Below, piece by piece: positions 1 to 53,019 of a stretch of 64,000 bases of DNA. The DNA lies in assembly GCA_030252795.1 (NCBI GenBank), contig CP127080.1:2931501-2995500 (forward strand), given 5' to 3'. A model generated the notes under the pieces. It had not been told where the DNA came from, did not search any database, and saw nothing but the letters and a program-made list of their open reading frames with translations. Both the position numbers and the translations under genes were made by a program. Positions within the stretch are counted from its first letter, which is position 1, and each line of letters starts with the position of its first letter. The DNA comes from Porticoccaceae bacterium LTM1. GTDB taxonomy: Bacteria > Pseudomonadota > Gammaproteobacteria > Pseudomonadales > Porticoccaceae.

Positions 1-3
1 CAT
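1..3 (-). CDS. Start codon of a gene running off the left edge (possibly gcvT)
   Basis: Reading leftwards, an ATG occupies the first three bases and is preceded by a very good ribosome binding site (GGAG, 7 bases upstream of the ATG). No coding sequence is visible beyond the start codon. In E. coli the gene after ubiI/visC is gcvT (aminomethyltransferase of the glycine cleavage system), so gcvT is the natural guess from gene order alone. The identity is inference; the start codon and its binding site are what the sequence shows. Confidence 0.4.
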
Positions 4-114
4 GTCGTTTCTCCAAAGTGGCTGTCGCCGTAACGTTGATGGGTGCCATTATGGAGAAGGACAATGTTAAGTAGGGTGGTGAAAGCGTAAAGAACCGTAA
101 AAGTAGCTCTTTTC

Positions 115-172
115 CTGACCTGACAGGTCGCGACGATTTGTAAGTTATATGAGGAGTGACCTGTCAGGTCAG
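115..172. repeat. Inverted repeat downstream of ubiI
   Basis: Two 15-base arms (115-129 and 158-172) are perfect reverse complements built on CTGACCTGACAGGTC, with a 28-base loop. Each arm is itself almost palindromic. There is no T-run on either side, so it is not a typical intrinsic terminator. It lies between the ubiI stop and the gene starting at the window edge and resembles the other inverted-repeat elements found in spacers of this window. Confidence 0.6.
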
Positions 173-257
173 TAAAAGTGCGGGCTACTTATACAAAACC
201 CGCAACACAAGAATCTCCGTCTTTCCCAGATTAAACTGAGATTCCTTACAGTTATTC

Positions 258-1469
258 TTACAACCCCATCGCCTGCCTAATCAACTGCTTTTTCAGCGGA
301 TCAATTTTATTCACCAACGACATGCCCTCATTGCGAAGCACGCGAAGAATCGGCAATTCACTGCCAAACAACTCTTTAAATCCTTTCATTGCAGCCATGG
401 TCGCCAGGTTGTCCGGTTTGCGGACGCGCTGGTAGCGGTTGAGCACACATAAATCACCCAGCGGCAGGCCGCGTTCGGTAGCGCGTTTTAGTTCGTCCAC
501 CAGTGCCACTACATCTTTAAAGCCGAGATTTACACCCTGCCCGGCGAGGGGATGAATGGTGTGGGCGGCATCGCCGAGCAGAGCGACATTTGGTTTCACA
601 TAGTCGCTGGCATGGCGCTGGGTCAGTGGAAAACAGAATCGTTTGGAAACGGTTTTTACATTACCGAGGGTAAATTGGCTGGCGCGGCTGAGAGCAGTGC
701 AAAATTCGGCATCATCCAAAGCCATCAACTCTTTAGCTTTTATATTGCGCTGAGACCAGACGATGGAAATATGATGTTCGCTTTCACCATTACCATCCGG
801 TGATTGATTGATTGGCAAAAATGCCAGCGGTCCGTCGGAGCTGAACCACTGCCTCGCCGTAGCACCGTGGGGGTGTTCACATTCAATGGTGGCCACTATG
901 GCAGAGTGGCCATAGGGATCTTCGTTGAGGGCGAAGTCGCACAGGGTACGTACGCTCGAGCGGGCTCCATCGGCAGCTACCAGTAATAGCGCACTGAGGG
1001 TCTCACCGCTGTCCAGAGTGACTGTTAGCTGCTCACCGTTGCGAGTAACGGATTCTACTTTCGCCGGACAGATAAGTTCGATATTTGAATAATCGGCGAG
1101 CTTGTCCTGCAGGGCGCCAACTATATTGGCGTTTTCCACAATATGGCCGATGCTCTCCTCGCCAATATCGTCACCATCAAATTCGATAAAGCCGGTGCCG
1201 TCGCTATCCCACACCGACATATGGGTGTAGGGCGTTACCCGGCGCTGAGCTATGGTTTGCCATACGCCGATCTCAGCGAGCATTCGCCGCGAGGCTTCAG
1301 TCAGCGCCACCACGCGGGGATCAAACTCCGTGTCTTCAAAGTAGCCTGAAAAGGGGTGAGACTCGATTACCGCTACCGACAGGGTCGGCACTTTTTTTGC
1401 CATCAGTGCCGCAAACGCAGCGCCTACCAAGCCGCCACCGGCAACTACTACATCCACATTTCGAGTCAT
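258..1469 (-). CDS. ubiI: FAD-dependent ubiquinone-biosynthesis hydroxylase, UbiI/VisC-like
   Basis: This is a 403-residue flavoprotein monooxygenase of the UbiH/UbiI/VisC family, which hydroxylates the polyprenyl-phenol ring during ubiquinone synthesis. The N-terminus carries the Rossmann FAD motif GGGLVGAA. The middle has the DGARS-type motif of flavin hydroxylases, and near residue 300 the second FAD motif is visible as GDAAHTIHPLAGQGVN. I chose the ATG at 1469, which puts the FAD motif about 10 residues from the N-terminus; an upstream TTG would add 23 unlikely residues. It is 40 bases downstream of ubiH, the same order as E. coli pepP-ubiH-visC, which favours UbiI (C5 hydroxylase). Exact regiospecificity cannot be read from sequence. 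Confidence 0.85.
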   Translation of the reverse strand: MTRNVDVVVAGGGLVGAAFAALMAKKVPTLSVAVIESHPFSGYFEDTEFDPRVVALTEASRRMLAEIGVWQTIAQRRVTPYTHMSVWDSDGTGFIEFDGDDIGEESIGHIVENANIVGALQDKLADYSNIELICPAKVESVTRNGEQLTVTLDSGETLSALLLVAADGARSSVRTLCDFALNEDPYGHSAIVATIECEHPHGATARQWFSSDGPLAFLPINQSPDGNGESEHHISIVWSQRNIKAKELMALDDAEFCTALSRASQFTLGNVKTVSKRFCFPLTQRHASDYVKPNVALLGDAAHTIHPLAGQGVNLGFKDVVALVDELKRATERGLPLGDLCVLNRYQRVRKPDNLATMAAMKGFKELFGSELPILRVLRNEGMSLVNKIDPLKKQLIRQAMGL

Positions 1470-1509
1470 CTTTTCGTTCCGAACGAGTACGCGATGCGCA
1501 CTAAAAATA

Positions 1510-2733
1510 CTATTCCAGGCCCATACCGTAACGGGCAAACTGGCTACGTAATCCCGGCATCATATCCATGGCAAACAGACCAGCGCCACGCGCCAGCGCA
1601 ACTGAAGGTGACGTTTTCGCAAATAGTTTTGGCAGCCAGTCGCTGGCGGTTACTGTGCGCAGTTGATCTTTTTGCTGGCTGTTAAGGTAGCGCTGCAGCA
1701 GCGCCAGATCGCCACAGGATTCACCACGCTTTGTCCCGATATCAAGCGTTTTGGCCAGTGCTGCAATATCACGCAACGCCAGGTTAAAGCCCTGCCCCGC
1801 CACCGGGTGCAGACTGTGGGCGGCGTTGCCAACCACCGCGATATTCCGGCGAACCTGTTCATTGGCCTGAATCAGTTTTAACGGGTAGCAGGCGCGTTCA
1901 CCAACGCCATTGAACTGCCCCTGGCGGTATCCAAACCAGTGATGCAGCTCGGCCAGAAAATCTGCTTCGCTGCACACCATCAATTCACCAGCCCTCTCTG
2001 GAGGCAGTGTCCACACCAATGCGCTGCGATGCTGACTGCCGGCATCCAGCAGTGGCAACAGCGCCATCGGGCCGTTGTCGGTAAAGCGTTCATAGGCGAT
2101 ACCGTTGTGGGGCTTGTTAAGTGCGATGTTGGCGATCAGTCCCATCTGACCGTAATCATCAACCTGGCAGCCGATACCCAGCTTCTCCCGGGTGGCAGAC
2201 TGCGCACCATCGGCGACCACCAGTAGTGAGGTATGAATGGCGTCCTGACGATCACTGAGGGTTAGCCTCACTCCATCGCGAACCATTTCAAGAGCGTCTA
2301 TGGTAGCGGGTGCTGCGAACTCTACATCGGTATTAATCAATGCCCCGTTCAATACTGCCCCGAGGCGACGGTTCTCCACCACATAGCCAAAGGCATCGAG
2401 TTGCTGCTCATGAGCGTGCAATTCAGTAGAGGCAACATGGCCCCGGTCGCTGACCTGAATACTGTTGATGGCGGCAAGCTCTGGCAGCAACTGCGGCCAC
2501 AGGCCGATTTTTTCTAATATACGCCGAGTGCTGAAGGAAAGCGCCGTTGAGCGGGCGTCAAAACTCGGTGCAAAGCTGGTACTGGCTTGCTGTTGCGGAT
2601 TGGCTTCCACGACAAGTACTTTCCATCGATGGGACTGGGCGGCCAACAGCAGGGCCAGGCTGGCCCCTACCATTCCGCCGCCGGCAATCACGATGTCATA
2701 ATTTACGCCACAGTTACTGGATGTCTCAGCCAA
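1510..2733 (-). CDS. ubiH: FAD-dependent ubiquinone-biosynthesis hydroxylase UbiH
   Basis: A 407-residue paralogue of the neighbouring UbiI-like protein. It has the N-terminal FAD-binding GGGMVGAS motif, a central DGAQSATR motif, and the C-terminal GNAAHSLHPVAGQGFN motif that closes the FAD site. UbiH performs the C6 hydroxylation of the quinone ring in E. coli. Its place directly after pepP and before the UbiI-like gene matches the conserved gammaproteobacterial order. The start appears to be TTG at 2733, with GGGAAG a short distance upstream and no usable ATG before the FAD motif. The spacer to pepP is about 30 bases, so ygfB, pepP, ubiH and ubiI are probably one transcript. Confidence 0.87.
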   Translation of the reverse strand: MAETSSNCGVNYDIVIAGGGMVGASLALLLAAQSHRWKVLVVEANPQQQASTSFAPSFDARSTALSFSTRRILEKIGLWPQLLPELAAINSIQVSDRGHVASTELHAHEQQLDAFGYVVENRRLGAVLNGALINTDVEFAAPATIDALEMVRDGVRLTLSDRQDAIHTSLLVVADGAQSATREKLGIGCQVDDYGQMGLIANIALNKPHNGIAYERFTDNGPMALLPLLDAGSQHRSALVWTLPPERAGELMVCSEADFLAELHHWFGYRQGQFNGVGERACYPLKLIQANEQVRRNIAVVGNAAHSLHPVAGQGFNLALRDIAALAKTLDIGTKRGESCGDLALLQRYLNSQQKDQLRTVTASDWLPKLFAKTSPSVALARGAGLFAMDMMPGLRSQFARYGMGLE

Positions 2734-2762
2734 TTCTCACTTCCCGCATCGCACGTTACCCG

Positions 2763-4091
2763 TCACTCGTCTCTCATCTCACGTTGCGCCATCAGCGCTT
2801 CAATTTCATCGGCGTTGGTTGGCACCGAGGCGGTGAGGTTTTCGTAGCCATCTTTGGTAACTGCCACATCGTCTTCAATACGAATACCGATGCCGCGCCA
2901 TTTCTCTTCGACGTTGAGGTTGTCCGGGGCAATATACAAGCCCGGCTCCACAGTAAGCACCATACCCGGTTCCAGCACGCGGGACTGCCCATCCACCTGA
3001 TAGTCACCGACGTCGTGCACATCAAGGCCGATCCAGTGACCGGTCTTGTGCATATAAAACTCTCGATAGGCGCCGTTTTCGATCAGCTCGTCGCGCTTAC
3101 CACGCAACAGGCCAAGCTCGATCAACCCTTCTGTGAGCACTCTCACTGCGGCATCGTGGGGTGCGCTCCAAAGCTTGCCCGGTGCCACTTCGTCAAAGGC
3201 GGCGTGCATCGCAGCCAACACAATATCGTAGAGGGCACGCTGCTCTGGACTGAATCTGCCACTGACCGGGAAGGTGCGGGTGATATCGGCAGCGTAGCCG
3301 TTCAACTCACATCCGGCATCGATTAACACCAGGTCACCATCTTTCAGCTCATCGCGGTTTTCAATGTAGTGGAGAATGCAGCCATTAGCCCCACCACCGA
3401 CGATGGTGCTGTAGGCGGGAAAGCGGGCACCGGAATTGGCAAATTCATGATTGATCTCCGCTTCCAGCTGATACTCAAACAAACCGGGGCGGCAACTATT
3501 CATCGCCCGACAATGAGCACGGGCGCTTATTTCACCCGCTTTACGCATGATCTCCAGCTCAGCGTCGCTTTTAAACAATCGCAGGTCGTGAACCAGGTGA
3601 TCGAGGTCGACAAATTCGCTCGGTGGTACAGCACCGGTGCGCACCTGTTTGCGCAGCTGTTTGACCCACCCCATCAGTTGGTCATCAAAGTCCGGGTGGC
3701 GGCCCATGGAATAGTAGACCCGCTCACGACCTTCCAGCAGCCCCGGCAGAATATCGTCGATATCACTGATCGGAAATGCGTCGTCAGCACCAAATTGCTT
3801 GGTAGCACCCTCGGGGCCAACCCGATATCCATCCCAGGTTTCACGCTCACGATTGCGTTCGCGACAGAACAGCACGGTTTCTCCCTGCTGACGCCCTGGA
3901 ATCAGTACCAGCACTGCCTCCGGCTCGGGAAAGCCACACAGGTAATGAAAATCACTGTCCTGGCGATAGTGGTATTCAGTATCGCGACTGCGGGTGCGCA
4001 TGGGCGCGGCCGGCAGCACCGCGATGCTGCCATCGCCCATCAGGTTCATCAATGTGCGACGACGGCGGCGAAATTCGGCGTTGGTGATCAA
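2763..4091 (-). CDS. pepP: Xaa-Pro aminopeptidase II (PepP)
   Basis: A 442-residue M24B metallopeptidase that removes an N-terminal residue preceding proline. The N-terminal creatinase-like domain is followed by the pita-bread catalytic domain. The dinuclear metal ligands fall in LVLIDAGCE and ADITRTFP (two aspartates), in the HWIGLDVHD region (histidine), in VEPGLYI and in IRIEDDV (glutamates), all in family order. The length matches E. coli PepP (441). The start is TTG at 4091; the following EFRRRRRTL aligns with the EFQRRRQAL start of the E. coli protein, and AGGG lies 9 bases upstream. It is the second gene of the ygfB-pepP-ubiH-ubiI operon. Confidence 0.93.
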   Translation of the reverse strand: MITNAEFRRRRRTLMNLMGDGSIAVLPAAPMRTRSRDTEYHYRQDSDFHYLCGFPEPEAVLVLIPGRQQGETVLFCRERNRERETWDGYRVGPEGATKQFGADDAFPISDIDDILPGLLEGRERVYYSMGRHPDFDDQLMGWVKQLRKQVRTGAVPPSEFVDLDHLVHDLRLFKSDAELEIMRKAGEISARAHCRAMNSCRPGLFEYQLEAEINHEFANSGARFPAYSTIVGGGANGCILHYIENRDELKDGDLVLIDAGCELNGYAADITRTFPVSGRFSPEQRALYDIVLAAMHAAFDEVAPGKLWSAPHDAAVRVLTEGLIELGLLRGKRDELIENGAYREFYMHKTGHWIGLDVHDVGDYQVDGQSRVLEPGMVLTVEPGLYIAPDNLNVEEKWRGIGIRIEDDVAVTKDGYENLTASVPTNADEIEALMAQREMRDE

Positions 4092-38730: not shown

Positions 38731-38897
38731 GGTCGCACGTCGGCCGTTGCACGTCGCACGCTTTTTCCCGTCATTTCCGCAAAAGCGTAAATCCATCTCG
38801 CTATTTCGTCATCCACTTGATTAACGAAAGTGGATCCCCGCCTGCGCGGGGATGACGAATCTCGTTGGGATTAGCGTCCGACGTCAGACGTCCGACC
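38731..38897. repeat. Heptamer-arm inverted-repeat element A (pgk-fba spacer)
   Basis: Left arm 38731-38762 consists of four GTCGCAC-like heptamers (two degenerate), and right arm 38872-38897 is the complement of three GTCGGAC/GTCTGAC units. The core of about 110 bases contains a nested GGATCCCCG hairpin repeat. In transcript direction the element begins 2 bases after the pgk stop codon. It is the most diverged of the five copies. Confidence 0.8.
38832..38856. repeat. Hairpin repeat, GGATCCCCGCCTGCGCGGGGATGAC family (nested)
   Basis: Same hairpin sequence as at 12039-12065, here inside element A. The flanking CGTCATCC at 38800-38813 makes a longer imperfect inverted repeat with GGATGACG. Confidence 0.7.
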
Positions 38898-40117: not shown

Positions 40118-40267
40118 GGTCGCACGTCTGACGTCGCACGTCGCACGCTTAATACCGTCCGCATCAAATTCATCTTTTACGTCAGCATCTCGTAGTACCA
40201 CAACATTCGAGGTCCTTCGAGTTGGTTTTGCTTTTAGCGTGCGACGTCTGACGTGCGACGTGCGACC
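40118..40267. repeat. Heptamer-arm inverted-repeat element B (epd-pgk spacer)
   Basis: Left arm 40118-40149 reads as GTCGCAC, GTCTGAC, GTCGCAC, GTCGCAC, then GCT; right arm 40235-40267 is its near-perfect complement with the odd heptamer shifted. The core of about 85 bases has no gene. In transcript direction the element starts 6 bases after the epd stop codon. Confidence 0.88.
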
Positions 40268-44716: not shown

Positions 44717-45697
44717 ATGAATCAGGATCCCCAACTTGCCACCAGTGATCTTGCCAGCCTTTTAAAAGCCGCTGGCGATCCATTGCGCCTGGAGATTCTG
44801 CGAATCCTGCAACGCGACTCTTATGGCGTTCTGGAGCTGTGCCAGATTCTGGATCTGCGGCAATCGGCACTGAGTTACCAATTAAAGGTCCTGGCCAAAG
44901 CCGGACTGGTAACCACCCGCAAGGAAGCCAATACGATTTTTTATCGACGCGCCTCGGCCACAGGCCCACAGGCAACCCTGCTGGATGAATTGTTTGGCCG
45001 GATCGACAAACTCGCATTGCGACCGGAACTGCAGTCGGGAATTGATGCCGTACAGACGGAGCGCACCGAAGCAGCACGAGATTTTTTTGAGCGCAATGCC
45101 AAGCGCTTTCATGAGTATCAGGACCTGATTGCCAGCCACAACGATTATGGCGAAGCCATTTGTGGCTTTTTGGACAGTATCGTGCCGGCATCTGCCGATA
45201 ACGTGCTGGAAGTTGGCCCTGGTGAAGGTGAACTACTGCCAGCCTTGAGCAAACGTTTCAAGAATGTAACTGCACTGGAACTCTCCAGCGAAATGCTTGC
45301 CAACTGCCAAGAGCTATCGAGTAAGCAAGCGCTCACAAACATCCAGTTTTTCCACGGTGATACCAGGGAAGCACTGAACGAGGGCATTAGCGCCGATTGC
45401 ATCACCATCAATATGGTGCTGCACCACACCCCCTCACCGGCAGACGTGTTTGCTGATTTGGGTGGCCTGCTGAACCCTGGCGGCACACTGCTGGTTACCG
45501 ACCTGTGTCGCCACGACCAGGGCTGGGCCAAAGAAGCTTGCGGCGACCAGTGGCTTGGCTTTGAGCCAGAAGATTTAACCGAGTGGGCATTGGAAGCCGG
45601 CTTGAGCGAGGGACAGAGTCAGTACCTCGCATTGCGAAATGGATTCAGAGTGCAGTTGAGGCATTTTGTGAAGGATGGTCGCACGTCGCACGTCTGA
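44717..45697 (+). CDS. sahR: ArsR-family regulator fused to SAM-dependent methyltransferase (SahR-like)
   Basis: A 326-residue protein with an N-terminal ArsR winged helix (LLKAAGDPLRLEILRILQRDSYGVLELCQILDLRQSALSYQLKVLAKAGLV) and a C-terminal class I methyltransferase domain with the SAM loop VLEVGPGEGELLPALS near residue 165. SahR-type ArsR regulators respond to S-adenosylhomocysteine and control methionine-cycle genes; metK, ahcY and metF lie directly downstream, which strongly suggests that role. An ATG at 44708 is an alternative start; neither has a ribosome binding site. The last six residues (GRTSHV) and stop codon are encoded by inverted-repeat element C, so the original C-terminus has been altered. 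Confidence 0.82.
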   Translation: MNQDPQLATSDLASLLKAAGDPLRLEILRILQRDSYGVLELCQILDLRQSALSYQLKVLAKAGLVTTRKEANTIFYRRASATGPQATLLDELFGRIDKLALRPELQSGIDAVQTERTEAARDFFERNAKRFHEYQDLIASHNDYGEAICGFLDSIVPASADNVLEVGPGEGELLPALSKRFKNVTALELSSEMLANCQELSSKQALTNIQFFHGDTREALNEGISADCITINMVLHHTPSPADVFADLGGLLNPGGTLLVTDLCRHDQGWAKEACGDQWLGFEPEDLTEWALEAGLSEGQSQYLALRNGFRVQLRHFVKDGRTSHV

Positions 45698-45829
45698 CGT
45701 CGCACGCTTGTTCGCTGCCAACTGCAAGTATCACGCAATCAGCAAGAACGACCCAACTTGCAGGAAACAAAGCGCAGTTTATGAACCTGAGGATTTTAGC
45801 GTGCGGCGTCAGACGTGCGACGTGCGACC
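45677..45829. repeat. Heptamer-arm inverted-repeat element C (sahR-metK spacer)
   Basis: Left arm 45677-45708 reads as GTCGCAC, GTCGCAC, GTCTGAC, GTCGCAC, then GCT; right arm 45797-45829 is its complement with one mismatch. The core of about 88 bases contains no gene. The left arm enters the end of the upstream coding sequence and supplies its stop codon. Confidence 0.9.
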
Positions 45830-45901: not shown

Positions 45902-47059
45902 ATGACCAAGTACACCGTATTTACTTCGGAATCCGTATCCGAAGGCCATCCCGACAAAATGGCGGACCAGATTTCCGACGCCATTCTCGACGCCATGCTG
46001 CAAGACGACCCGGAATCCCGCGTCGCTGTTGAAACCATGGTGAAAACCGGTATGGCAGTGATCGCCGGTGAAGTTCGCACATCCACTTATGTGGATCTGG
46101 AAGACATCGTTCGCAATGTGATTCTGGATATCGGTTACAACAGCAGCGATGTCGGTTTTGACGGTGCCAGCTGTGCGGTTCTGAACGCCATTGGTAAGCA
46201 GTCCAGCGACATTGCCATGGGTGTAGACGAAGCTGACGATAAGGACCAGGGCGCCGGCGACCAGGGGCTGATGTTTGGTTATGCAACCAACGAAACCGAC
46301 GTGTTTATGCCAGCTCCGGTTCACTTCTCGCACCGTCTGGTAGAGCGTCAGGCCTATCTGCGCCACCACAAGGTACTCCCTTGGTTGCGCCCGGATGCCA
46401 AGAGCCAGGTAACCATGCGTTACGACGAGAACGGCCACCCCTGTGCCGTGGACGCCGTTGTGCTGTCAACCCAACACAACCCGGAAGTCTCCCAGTCCGA
46501 TATTCGCGAAGCGGTAATGGAAGAGATTATTAAGCATGTGATTCCGGCCGAGCTGCTGCACGCCGCCACCAAGTTCCACATCAACCCGACCGGCCAGTTC
46601 ATTATCGGTGGCCCGGTAGGTGACTGCGGCCTGACCGGTCGCAAGATCATCGTCGACACTTACGGCGGTATGGCGCGCCACGGCGGTGGTGCGTTCTCCG
46701 GTAAAGACCCGTCCAAAGTGGACCGCTCTGCCGCTTACGCCGGTCGCTATGTAGCCAAAAATATCGTCGCTGCAGGCCTCGCCGAGCGCTGTGAAATCCA
46801 GGTTTCCTACGCCATCGGCGTTGCCGAACCGACCTCGATCAGCGTGAACACTTTCGGTACCGGCAAGATTCCGGAAGAGAATATCGAAGCACTGGTACGC
46901 GATCACTTCGACCTGCGCCCGAAAGGCATCGTCGAAATGCTCGACCTGAAGCGCCCGATCTATCGTAAAACTGCTGCCTATGGGCATTTTGGACGGGAGG
47001 ATGCGGACTTCACGTGGGAGAAGACGGACAAGGCTGAGATTTTGAGGGCCGCGTTGTAA
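45902..47059 (+). CDS. metK: S-adenosylmethionine synthetase
   Basis: A 385-residue enzyme making SAM from methionine and ATP. It has [27 protein letters not shown] at the N-terminus, the [12 protein letters not shown] hexapeptide region near residue 118, and the [23 protein letters not shown] phosphate-binding stretch near residue 260. Its length equals E. coli MetK (384). There is no SAM riboswitch in the upstream spacer, which is mostly repeat element C; control is more likely through the SahR-like regulator. The stop is 7 bases before element D. Confidence 0.97.
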
Positions 47060-47066
47060 GTGATTT

Positions 47067-47543
47067 TGGTCGCACGTCGCACGTCGCACGTCGCACGCTA
47101 AAACCATCAGTTCAGGGAGGAACTGAAAGTATGAAGAAATACCAGAAGTTAGTTGTTTGGAAACAGGCTATGGAATTGGCATTGAGTGTGTACAAAAGCA
47201 CTCAACGGTTTCCTGACGAAGAGAAATTCGGGCTGATCTCGCAAATGCGTAGAGCGAGCGTAAGTATCGCTTCAAACATTGCGGAAGGCGCAGGTCGAGG
47301 TAGTGACAGAGATTTCGTCTGCTTCCTCATAATTGCCAGAGGCTCACTGAACGAATTAGAAACTCAGGTTTTATTAGCGATACAACTCGGCTTTTTACAA
47401 CCACAGGCCGATCTCGAAGACAAAATAGAACACGTCTTCGCCATGCTAAGCAACTTGATAAACAAACTGCAGGATCGCAGTGTCGCCTAATCTGCAGCAC
47501 GCTCCGCTTTTAGCGTGCGACGTCAGACGTGCGACGTGCGACC
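47067..47543 (+). mobile_element. Heptamer-arm inverted-repeat element D carrying a four-helix-bundle gene
   Basis: A 477-bp element whose 36-base terminal inverted repeats (47067-47102 and 47508-47543) differ at only two positions. The left arm is four tandem GTCGCAC heptamers followed by GCTAAAA; in the right arm one heptamer is GTCTGAC on the complementary strand. The core is almost filled by one intact gene (47131-47490) with its own strong ribosome binding site. The element starts 7 bases after the metK stop and ends 21 bases before the ahcY ATG. Four shorter relatives without the gene are in this window. It contains no transposase; mobility is inferred from the repeated, terminally inverted structure. 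Confidence 0.72.
47131..47490 (+). CDS. Four-helix-bundle protein (23S rRNA IVS/S23-like family, TIGR02436)
   Basis: A 119-residue all-helical protein with the signature of the four-helix-bundle family: LVVWKQAMELALSVYKST, FPDEEKFGLISQMRRASVSIASNIAEGAGR and GSLNELETQVLLAIQLGFL. Members are encoded in intervening sequences of 23S rRNA genes and are distantly related to the Avd accessory protein of diversity-generating retroelements; their biochemical role is not settled. The conserved basic QMRRASVSIASNIAEG surface suggests nucleic-acid binding. A GGAGGAACTGAAAGT leader precedes the ATG. The gene lies wholly inside the terminal inverted repeats of element D, in the middle of the metK-ahcY operon and in the same direction. 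Confidence 0.92.
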   Translation: MKKYQKLVVWKQAMELALSVYKSTQRFPDEEKFGLISQMRRASVSIASNIAEGAGRGSDRDFVCFLIIARGSLNELETQVLLAIQLGFLQPQADLEDKIEHVFAMLSNLINKLQDRSVA

Positions 47544-47564: not shown

Positions 47565-48935
47565 ATGAGCAACACCGATTACAAAGTCGCAGATATCAAC
47601 CTGGCCGACTGGGGCAACAAAGAAATCGCCATCGCAGAAACCGAAATGCCAGCCCTGATGGCTCTTCGTGAAAAATACGCTGCCGAGCAACCGCTGAAAG
47701 GCGCAAAAATCCTCGGCTGTATTCACATGACCATTCAGACCGCTGTACTGATCCAGACCCTGGAAGCACTGGGCGCCGAAGTGCGCTGGACCTCGTGCAA
47801 CATTTTCTCCACCCAGGATCACGCTGCCGCCGCAATCGCTGCCAGTGGTACACCGGTATTCGCCTGGAAAGGTGAGACCGAGGAAGAGTACGAATGGTGC
47901 CTGGAGCAACAGATCCTGAAAGACGGCCAGCCTTGGGATGCCAACATGGTGCTGGATGATGGCGGCGACCTGACTGCTATGCTGCACGAAAAATACCCGC
48001 AAGTACTGGAGAACGTTCACGGCATCACCGAAGAAACCACCACCGGGGTACACCGCCTGTACGAAATGCTGGAAAACGGCGAACTGAAAGTACCAGCTAT
48101 CAACGTGAACGACTCTGTAACCAAGTCCAAAAACGACAACAAGTATGGCTGTCGTCACAGCCTCAACGATGCCATCAAGCGCGGTACCGACCACCTGCTG
48201 TCCGGTAAAAAAGCCCTGGTAATCGGTTACGGCGATGTGGGTAAAGGCTCTGCCCAATCCCTGCGCCAGGAAGGCATGATCGTAAAAGTGGCGGAGATCG
48301 ACCCGATCTGTGCCATGCAGGCATGTATGGATGGCTACGAAGTAGTTTCTCCTTACATCGACGGCATCAATACCGGCGAACGCGACTGCATTAACAAAGA
48401 GCTGCTGGGCAATACCGATCTGGTGGTAACCACCACCGGTAACGTTAACGTCTGTGATGCCAATATGCTGGCCAGCCTGAAAAGCGGCTGTGTGGTTTCC
48501 AATATCGGTCACTTCGACAATGAAATTGATACCGCCTTCCTGCGTAAAAATTACGAGTGGGAAGAAGTAAAACCGCAGGTACACAAAATTTACCGTGACC
48601 GGGCCAACAACGATCACCTGATCCTGCTCTCTGAAGGCCGCCTGGTAAACCTGGGCAACGCCACCGGTCACCCGTCGCGCATTATGGATGGTTCTTTCGC
48701 CAACCAGGTATTGGCACAAATGTACCTGTGGGAACTGAAATTCGCCGATCAGGACGATACCCGTAAAGCTGAGCTGCTGAAAGTGGAAGTATTGCCGAAG
48801 AAACTCGACGAAGAAGTAGCAGCTCACATGGTGCGCGGTTTTGGTGGTGTGATCACCAAACTGACAGAAAAACAGGCCAGCTATATTCACGTGCCAGTTG
48901 AAGGGCCGTACAAGCCGGAAAGTTATCGCTATTAA
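47565..48935 (+). CDS. ahcY: S-adenosylhomocysteine hydrolase
   Basis: A 456-residue NAD-dependent enzyme that splits S-adenosylhomocysteine into adenosine and homocysteine. Substrate motifs include [26 protein letters not shown] near residue 60 and [18 protein letters not shown] near residue 190; the NAD-binding [10 protein letters not shown] is near residue 225; the C-terminal KPESYRY tail, whose lysine and tyrosine reach the neighbouring subunit, is intact. The ATG at 47565 has AAGGA upstream, just outside element D; in-frame codons upstream are repeat sequence. It fits the SahR-MetK-AhcY-MetF methionine cycle. Confidence 0.97.
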
Positions 48936-48941
48936 TTGAAG

Positions 48942-49110
48942 GGTCGCGCGTCGCACGTCGCACGTCGCACGCTAAAACCAAGCACCTTGTTTGTCATCCT
49001 GAGCGAAGCGAAGGATCTCCCACTTCGAAGCAGAAAAGAGATTCTTCACTTCGTTCAGAATGACAGCACAGAGGGTTTAGCGTGCGACGTCAGACGTGCG
49101 ATGTGCGGCC
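48942..49110. repeat. Heptamer-arm inverted-repeat element E (ahcY-metF spacer)
   Basis: Left arm 48942-48979 is four GTCGCAC-like heptamers plus GCTAAAACC; right arm 49075-49110 is its complement with four or five differences. The core of about 95 bases is mostly a nested TGTCATCCTGAG-family repeat. It begins 6 bases after the ahcY stop codon. Confidence 0.9.
48992..49065. repeat. Inverted-repeat element, TGTCATCCTGAG family (nested in element E)
   Basis: TGTCATCCTGAGCGAAGCGA and the imperfect complement TTCGTTCAGAATGACA form the arms. It is inside the core of element E, showing that one repeat family inserted into another or that the core was assembled from existing repeats. Confidence 0.75.
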
Positions 49111-49160: not shown

Positions 49161-50003
49161 ATGACCACTGACAATATCAATATCAGCTTCGAATTCTTCC
49201 CCCCTCGCACTGACGAAGGCCGGGAAAAGTTAAAAAACGTTCGCGCCGAATTAAACAAACTCGGCCCGGAATACTTTTCCTGCACTTACGGTGCCGGCGG
49301 CTCCACCCGCGATAACACCAAAGGTGTAGTACTGGAAATGAAAGGCGAGGGCTACGATATCGCCCCGCACCTCTCTTTTGGCAGCGACAGCGAAGAAACC
49401 ATTCAGCAGCTGTTGAGCGATTACAAAGATGCCGGCGTTAATCGCCTGGTCGCACTGCGTGGTGACCTGCCTTCTGGCATGGGTGCTCCCAAACCGATCT
49501 ATGCAGAGCAGTTGGTGGCATTTACTCGCGAGCACTTTGGCGATCACTTTAATATTGCCGTTGCCTGTTATCCGGAAATTCACCCGCAAGCGCCCAGCTA
49601 TCATCAAGACATCGAATTTCTGAAGCGCAAATTCGATGCAGGCGCAAACTACGGTATTACCCAGTACTTTTACCACGCTGACGCCTATTTTTATTTTGCA
49701 GAAGAGTGTGATAAAGCCGGCATTAATCAACCGATTTATCCCGGTATTATGCCGATCACCAACTACCACAATCTGGCGCGCTTCTCTGATGCCTGTGGCG
49801 CCGATATCCCACGCTGGATTCGAAAGGGCCTGGAAAGTTGTGGGGAAGACAAAGAGGCGATCAAGGCCTTTGGTTTGGATGTGGTCACCAGCTTGTGTGA
49901 ACAACTGATTGATGGTGGCGTACCGGGCTTCCACTTTTACACCATGAATCAGGTGGAACCGACCCGGCAGATTATCGAAAATCTGGGCCTTACCGAACAA
50001 TAG
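49161..50003 (+). CDS. metF: 5,10-methylenetetrahydrofolate reductase
   Basis: A 280-residue FAD enzyme of the MetF family, making 5-methyl-THF for methionine synthesis. The N-terminal SFEFFPPRTDEGREKL contains the catalytic glutamate; LVALRGDLP near residue 97, ACYPEIHPQA near residue 135 and ITQYFYHAD near residue 170 shape the FAD/folate site; GVPGFHFYTMNQVEPT near the end is typical. Length is slightly below E. coli MetF (296). It is the last gene of the methionine-cycle cluster, and its stop codon abuts the composite repeat at 50003-50168. Confidence 0.95.
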   Translation: MTTDNINISFEFFPPRTDEGREKLKNVRAELNKLGPEYFSCTYGAGGSTRDNTKGVVLEMKGEGYDIAPHLSFGSDSEETIQQLLSDYKDAGVNRLVALRGDLPSGMGAPKPIYAEQLVAFTREHFGDHFNIAVACYPEIHPQAPSYHQDIEFLKRKFDAGANYGITQYFYHADAYFYFAEECDKAGINQPIYPGIMPITNYHNLARFSDACGADIPRWIRKGLESCGEDKEAIKAFGLDVVTSLCEQLIDGGVPGFHFYTMNQVEPTRQIIENLGLTEQ

Positions 50004-51789: not shown

Positions 51790-51856
51790 TGTAGTGGTCT
51801 AATAAAACCGGACACCAACTTGGGTGGTAATATCACGCCCCACAGAGAGGTGTTCA

Positions 51857-53019
<1,163 letters not shown>

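Follow-up and report, generated by a model that had tools for sequence, protein, structure and literature searches.

The locus raises the question of what a short unit with inverted repeats at its ends, and with a single gene of the 23S rRNA intervening-sequence protein family (PF05635, here called IVP), is doing between two protein-coding genes. It lies in the 64,000-nucleotide stretch of the Porticoccaceae bacterium LTM1 genome that was analysed here (the window; contig CP127080.1, positions 2,931,501 to 2,995,500). The two neighbours, which we take from their translations to be metK and ahcY, enclose the unit, so that its site is not a 23S rRNA helix; a third host gene is presumably metF. 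By tblastn, metK has a homologous position in relatives and metF was also found in them, and ahcY was matched in 29 of 29 genomes searched.

The first-pass annotation had described a unit of 477 bp with 36-nt terminal inverted repeats and two mismatches. The repeats are as described (36 nt each, 94% complementary), and the length has to be corrected to 476 bp because position 47067 is unpaired. Both arms are built of tandem heptamers (Table 1). The RNA fold of the element has a long terminal stem (z = -6.8), and ahcY has its own start region, which lies outside the right arm. The intact four-helix-bundle gene proposed as the sole cargo is indeed alone: no other ORF of at least 80 aa lies wholly between the arms, and, as also proposed, no transposase is found inside. 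ORFs which we take to be an IS3-like transposase are located near the region at 51824-53019; no relation to the arms was seen.

Table 1. Features of the metK-ahcY element, its host genes and related elements, in window coordinates.
Feature	Position	Strand	Basis
IVP element, inverted heptamer arms around the PF05635 gene	47068..47543	+	repeat search; ortholog in G001, remnant in G002
Left arm of IVP element: G + GTCGCAC x4 (47069-47096) + GCTAAAA	47068..47103	+	
Putative ribosome-binding site AGGGAGG, 10 nt 5' of the IVP ATG	47114..47120	+	read from sequence
Four-helix-bundle protein gene, PF05635 / TIGR02436, 119 aa, purifying selection	47131..47490	+	
Right arm of IVP element, inverted: GTCGCAC GTCGCAC GTCTGAC GTCGCAC (47515-47542) + GCTAAAA	47508..47543	-	
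Presumed metK, upstream host gene	45902..47059	+	name from translation
Presumed ahcY, downstream host gene	47565..48935	+	name from translation
Presumed metF, host gene	49161..50003	+	name from translation
Decayed element with 4 units in the left arm and three GTCGGAC/GTCTGAC-like units in the right arm	38731..38897	.	
Gene-less element, 4+4 units, same arms, interior 92 nt	40118..40267	.	
Gene-less element (4+4 units) with a 95-nt interior, before metK	45677..45829	.	
Gene-less element (4+4 units) in the ahcY-metF spacer, with a GTCATCCTGAGCG palindrome nested in its 111-nt interior	48942..49110	.	

The ORF matches PF05635 (23S_rRNA_IVP) with E = 2.7e-36 and TIGR02436 with 2.4e-36, and is the only PF05635 match in the 3.13-Mb single-contig genome. 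Between LTM1 (G000) and its congener G001 the gene shows a pN of 0.14 and a pS of 0.79 (saturated), and two IVP copies from Desulfoferrobacter give a dN/dS of about 0.08; judged by these substitution rates the protein is under purifying selection. To our knowledge it has no known catalytic motif. The AF2 model (pLDDT 95.4) has its best fold match in 2gsc, the XCC0516 protein (TM 0.87-0.91), which is a homopentamer (PMC4990558). Matches to Avd of diversity-generating retroelements (4dwl, TM up to 0.76) and to the chains of their ribonucleoprotein (TM 0.59-0.74) have weak E-values of 0.02 and above; homology of PF05635 and Avd has been proposed (PMC10053308).

The arms are not restricted to this site. 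The LTM1 genome contains 92 matches to CACGTCGCACG versus 7 to the reversed control, and 84 matches to GTCGCACGTCGCACG versus none to its control, which excludes chance. In a strict scan every CACGTCGCACG match cluster was fetched and arrays less than 600 nt apart were paired, and 33 paired GTCGCAC elements as well as four single arrays could be identified, one of the latter, at 38731, having a decayed second arm. Thirty-two of the 33 paired elements are gene-less, short and non-coding with terminal inverted repeats, as is typical of MITEs. Four heptamer units are found in 24 of the 33 left and 26 of the 33 right arms. The interior of the IVP element is 418 nt long; of the other elements, 28 have interiors of 86-128 nt and four of 36-54 nt. 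Between arm pairs less than 600 nt apart IVP is the only gene, both in the 33 pairs of LTM1 and in the 21 pairs of G001 among the matches listed, and none of the unpaired exact CACGTCGCACG 11-mer matches in LTM1 has an opposite partner within 10 kb that would be able to enclose a transposase. The elements reside mostly between aligned ORFs (28 of 33 by script); two more, at window positions 47069 and 48943, were misassigned by the script, which picked antisense ORFs where the real neighbours are aligned. A single gene cluster (L054) has five of the 33 in consecutive spacers, all within 7.8 kb.

Four short gene-less elements of the window had been singled out earlier as sharing the ends of the IVP element and as its non-autonomous derivatives. 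The shared ends are confirmed for the elements at 40118, 45677 and 48942; in the one at 38731 the right arm is degenerate, with 10 mismatches to the 35-nt arm consensus (14 in the best of 200 shuffles). Their origin by deletion from the gene-bearing unit was considered and rejected, because the interiors are mostly unrelated to one another: among the 30 of 33 elements with an interior of usable length, 19 of 435 pairs score above the best shuffled score, nine of the ten strongest similarities are among elements with a nested palindrome, and no remnants of the IVP gene were found in this comparison. Among the LTM1 elements the arms are conserved and the interiors mostly are not.

The nested palindrome GTCATCCTGAGCG was tried as a part of the system and dismissed, since most of its 98 genome matches lie outside heptamer elements and few interiors contain it. 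Six GTCATCCTGAGCG sites in one orientation, spaced by 196-198 bp, form a tandem array (G000 C1:1252217-1253213); elsewhere in the genome the repeat is dispersed. G000 and G001 also contain inverted pairs of a second heptamer family, GAGAGAT/GGGAGAT. It has 52 matches in G000, 73 in G001 and three in the other congener, G002; those in G000 are 26 forward and 26 reverse with at most one mismatch (e.g. C1:1726061-1726132 and C1:2498088-2498233). No IVP gene cognate to this family was found in G000, and a matching gene is therefore not strictly needed for persistence.

Within the genus the copy number of the arms follows the IVP gene. PF05635 genes are present in G000 and G001 and absent from G002, and GTCGCACGTCGCACG has 84, 63 and 3 matches in these genomes, respectively, and none in the other 94 relatives searched. 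In G009, which belongs to another genus of the family, the heptamer GTCTGAA is matched 33 times versus zero times in five other relatives; the reversed-pattern control for this count is invalid because a reversed tandem array contains itself.

A comparison of the metK-ahcY spacers in sister strains had been suggested in the first-pass annotation, and the element turned out not to occupy the identical site in all of them; arms elsewhere are moreover strongly associated with PF05635 genes (see below), and the refuting outcome named in that annotation therefore did not arise. G001 carries an IVP element at the same place, while the G002 spacer has collapsed to 69 nt with a remnant of the outermost heptamers, GGCCGCACG...CGTGCGCC. 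Among 28 aligned ahcY loci an IVP is located there only in G000, G001 and G009, the last with GTCTGAA arms; no IVP was found at the other 25, and the 11 of these spacers that were measured span 52-134 nt between aligned ends. Further IVP elements occupy the metK-ahcY spacer of G083, from another family (GGGAGAC-type arms), and of Alcanivorax hongdengensis (GTCGGAC/GTCTGAC arms), the genes being recognised from flank translations in both cases. The same spacer in five genomes thus holds IVP elements of four heptamer types, a recurrence that fits shared descent as well as a preferred target.

The five elements of the L054 cluster (E1 to E5) were compared with both congeners by eye. The E1 site is empty in both; no target duplication is evident there by eye against the two empty sites, whose flanks have diverged. 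At E2, E4 and E5 G001 holds other heptamer families in the same spacer; G002 has no element at E5 and an interval of 2.3 kb at E2. E3 is common to G000 and G001 with the same interior; G002 lacks it, along with E4 and the gene that follows. At the site corresponding to 48942, G001 has the same arms around a different interior. When 20 G001 regions and L145 were compared, 11 flank-matched sites among the matches listed were occupied in both genomes, with interiors alike at five (one of them the IVP gene) and unlike at six. Orthologous spacers in sister species are thus empty, decayed or filled with another heptamer family.

We also asked how often IVP genes lie between paired arms in general. 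From a similarity search of genome contigs the best 80 of at least 475 relatives were taken, and together with further loci from genome searches 82 were examined, without L061 and L064 (the same place as L056) and without loci with flanks below 200 nt. An inverted-repeat score of at least 30 is reached by 50 of these 82 loci versus one of 820 random windows. With a stricter, gene-centred control and a threshold of 28 the numbers are 52 of 81 versus 8 of 208; this comparison leaves out the window's own locus, and in the scoring L062 gave no match and the L084 flank was too short. Autocorrelation at lag 7, compared with the random windows, is 0.563 at IVP loci versus 0.388, and other lags are at or near this control. 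Since the first loci were chosen by similarity, the IVP genes of ten multi-copy genomes were also taken, and 31 of the 68 loci outside the first set reach a score of 28. Below it remain 29 of 81 and 37 of 68 loci, respectively, including all seven loci of Roseivirga and all five of one Cyclobacteriaceae genome; some loci lacking an arm pair have a one-sided or decayed array.

The arm unit is usually a heptamer, and its sequence is not universal. Of 80 distinct elements scoring at least 28, 65 have 7 as their best arm period, 11 have 8 and four have another value; the median arm is 31 nt long. A self-match of 60% is reached by 66 of the 80 and, after shuffling, by none of 87, seven of which are duplicates; the 80-element set has none of these seven, and the later arm comparison left one duplicate pair (L075/L226). 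After normalisation for rotation 61 different heptamers are counted among 67 elements, so that nearly every IVP lineage has its own. The idea that the heptamer is a property of the whole genome was rejected, as the IVPs of one multi-copy genome differ in it. In thirty genomes reached via the loci the number of PF05635 matches ranges from 1 to 23, and in the genome with 23 copies (G113) GAGTGAC arrays are few, with four matches.

In 55 of the 70 loci that could be classified (14 of 84 could not), the IVP gene points the same way as both of its neighbours. The host spacers include accB-accC (L073), secD-secF (L066) and guaB-guaA (L069), names which we presume from the flank translations; these three loci are below the inverted-repeat threshold. 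At L073, from Rhodanobacter, the IVP lies beside GGGAATC units and the genome has 25 matches to GGGAATCGGGAATC, with an inverted-repeat score of only 19.

One locus connects the elements to the rRNA genes. In L060, bases 1-3187 of 3327 match Rfam LSU_rRNA_bacteria; the IVP gene lies within, and its arms consist of CAGAGGA-type heptamers. L060 is the only one of 176 loci checked with a 23S location. With this one case the classical 23S intervening sequences become a likely special case of the same element and may be one of its manifestations. The association of inverted heptamer arms with IVP genes spans many phyla, and together with the 23S rRNA case this means that it is not a local curiosity.

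IVP genes have been reported from further contexts: 18 were counted in cas loci (PMC3936711), a CRISPR survey names the protein in a figure legend (PMC10910872), and it occurs in rRNA insertions of CPR bacteria (PMC11270868). On a plasmid of Pseudanabaena galeata (NZ_CP112875.1, L176) an IVP and long heptamer arrays lie between annotated cas6 and cas4, beside type I-D cas5. The presence of IVP in cas operons may reflect insertion of the element rather than a CRISPR function. Relatives of IVP were found in 29 plasmid records, mostly cyanobacterial. The flanks were read at eight of these, and inverted arrays are present at four (two Calothrix plasmids with the same sequence, Pseudanabaena, and Stanieria with a 15-nt match), while those of two Nostoc, one Trichormus and the Nostoc HK-01 plasmid show no long inverted match. 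The two Calothrix plasmids share the flanking genes too and are therefore no evidence of a jump. Among 50,697 phage records no IVP protein match was found at E 0.001.

What is maintained in these elements was approached by comparing the arms. In G000 (20 elements) the two arms of one element differ by 3.00 mismatches and arms of different elements by 2.59 (permutation p 0.95); in G001 (15 elements) the values are 2.80 and 2.31 (p 0.96). Arms belonging to one element do not resemble each other more than arms from different elements do, so pairing between them is not what is maintained, and stem pairing as the selected trait was rejected. This lack of co-variation speaks for the heptamer itself being recognised rather than for a selected stem. 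The conserved unit number and word, next to interiors that are not conserved, likewise point to the heptamer as a recognition word, as does the sharing of words among closer proteins: at 55% protein identity or more, 11 of 25 pairs (one a duplicate) share an arm word versus 5 of 25 with reversed arms, and below 55% the share is 0.4-3.3% of pairs (0.2-1.5% reversed). Below 55% identity the similarity of the arms no longer follows that of the protein, which counts against the explanation preferred below.

The explanation that we prefer, and hold with slightly more confidence than doubt, is that the unit is an autonomous representative of a class of selfish elements that is widespread and has no transposase. 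Their Avd-like protein would recognise its own heptamer and would sustain the gene-less copies too. Each end would be an inverted tandem-heptamer array, usually of four units in this genus, and the sole gene would encode an Avd-like four-helix-bundle protein with a pentameric ring as its nearest solved relative. This protein would bind the tandem heptamers of its own lineage and in trans sustain the dozens of gene-less elements with the same arms, which would depend on it. It would drive movement or homogenisation of the elements, probably by recruiting some other machinery; a reverse transcriptase or another host enzyme as the partner is a guess from the Avd fold. The elements would take up residence in intercistronic spacers that are transcribed and co-directional and, now and then, in rRNA genes, where they would be the 23S intervening sequences of the classical kind. 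Their sense orientation within operons is compatible with an RNA route as well as with selection against harmful insertions. Of the GGGAATC repeats of one Xanthomonas species, 83% have the same position in another, in surroundings whose stability exceeds that of controls (PMC4692102). This argues for long residence and not for frequent movement, and so do the 11 sites occupied in both G000 and G001 among the matches listed. Further points against the preferred explanation are that no target duplication was seen by eye, that the second heptamer family persists in G000 with no cognate IVP gene found, that many IVP loci score below the threshold and that the interiors are not remnants of the gene.

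Stable places are also what would be expected if the elements were not mobile at all and served in regulation or RNA processing, as intercistronic hairpins that RNase III cuts or IVP binds and that tune the operon mRNA, spread slowly by recombination and are kept by selection. We regard this as unlikely, but as the most serious competitor. The position between aligned ORFs, the reading of the IVP gene with the operon and the long terminal stem agree with it, RNase III cuts the 23S intervening sequence (PMC4990558), and the Xanthomonas arrays are mostly transcribed (PMC4692102). Against it, the arms of one element show no compensatory match, interiors turn over, congeners have vacant sites or other heptamer families in them, and lineage-specific heptamers with bursts of copy number look selfish.

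Mobility could instead be provided by an unlinked transposase (RAYT and IS enzymes are examples) for which the heptamer ends of MITE-like elements serve as recognition sites, with IVP as a passenger. Terminal inverted repeats, many short copies and the lack of a catalytic gene inside are features of MITEs, the genome harbours another abundant palindromic repeat (the 98 matches mentioned above), and the presumed IS3-like transposase is close by. A mere passenger, however, would hardly be PF05635 in lineage after lineage with different ends, even if the loci were collected by that gene, nor would it be under strong purifying selection; in addition IVP is the only gene enclosed by the arm pairs less than 600 nt apart, and the unpaired 11-mer matches have no opposite partner within 10 kb. 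This makes the passenger reading quite improbable. We give hardly any credence to the view that the arrays are simple-sequence repeats produced by polymerase slippage, or retained as G-quadruplexes, with IVP nearby by chance. Slippage was offered to explain why heptamers are abundant, and GGGAATC arrays with their four units are compatible with G4 formation (PMC4692102), but three consecutive G are lacking in GTCGCAC and many of the other units, which would therefore not form that G4, the inverted repeats surround IVP genes far more often than control genes (52/81 versus 8/208), unit number peaks at four, and the interior length is narrow.

In comparison to known systems the LTM1 unit is closest to the 23S rRNA intervening sequences with an S23/IVP ORF, such as the 428-nt Coxiella element (PMC4990558), with which it has in common the protein family, the size, the stem-forming terminal inverted repeats and the sense orientation in a transcribed unit. 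It differs in its location in a protein-coding operon, and dozens of gene-less copies sharing the arms are a feature of the LTM1 elements; in the part of the Coxiella account available here (PMC4990558) no mention of a heptamer structure of the arms was found. The arms themselves resemble orphan heptamer repeats, which are likewise intergenic, lineage-specific tandem 7-mers in many copies. In Xanthomonas 186 and 183 GGGAATC arrays per genome were reported, with four units preferred and 70 and 75 inverted pairs, located between aligned ORFs and, as far as the available part of the report goes, with no general link to mobile elements (PMC4692102). TAACTGA arrays are known from Beggiatoaceae and cyanobacteria (PMC4679880), and heptamer and octamer arrays from Geobacter metallireducens, some ascribed to an unidentified regulator (PMC2700814). 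All of these are described, in the available parts of the three reports, without an IVP gene (PMC4692102, PMC4679880, PMC2700814).

The fold likeness to Avd (4dwl) does not extend to the organisation of diversity-generating retroelements, as the IVP element has no template, variable repeat or reverse transcriptase inside. In REPIN/RAYT systems, too, one protein gene is flanked by repeats and many gene-less inverted-repeat copies occupy intergenic spacers. RAYT is a catalytic HUH transposase; the gene between the LTM1 arms is PF05635 only, with no Y1/HUH transposase, and the ends of IVP elements differ in being tandem heptamers. The first-pass annotation had suspected that IVP as the cargo of a terminal-repeat element in protein-coding operons was undescribed, and no paper linking heptamer arms to the IVP protein was found in the literature searched (mostly openly accessible papers, partly by title or abstract, with preprints outside the scope). 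In this literature the heptamer repeats and the IVP family are each described separately and are not linked.

The locus joins two open questions, the nature of orphan tandem heptamers and the role of the 23S intervening sequences and their protein, and many natural pairs of protein and word are available. We tentatively extend the preferred reading, with more doubt than belief, to an enzyme-less mobile class in many phyla: a pentameric IVP would read a lineage-specific heptamer, at about one word per subunit on tandem arrays, would recruit host or reverse-transcription machinery and would spread word-flanked cassettes into operon spacers, and the satellites of cyanobacteria, Xanthomonas and Geobacter as well as the 23S intervening sequences would be its footprints. 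If it is true that IVP reads a heptamer which varies between lineages, the family would represent a new nucleic-acid recognition module, and if the protein-word model holds, the elements would be a new kind of mobile element.
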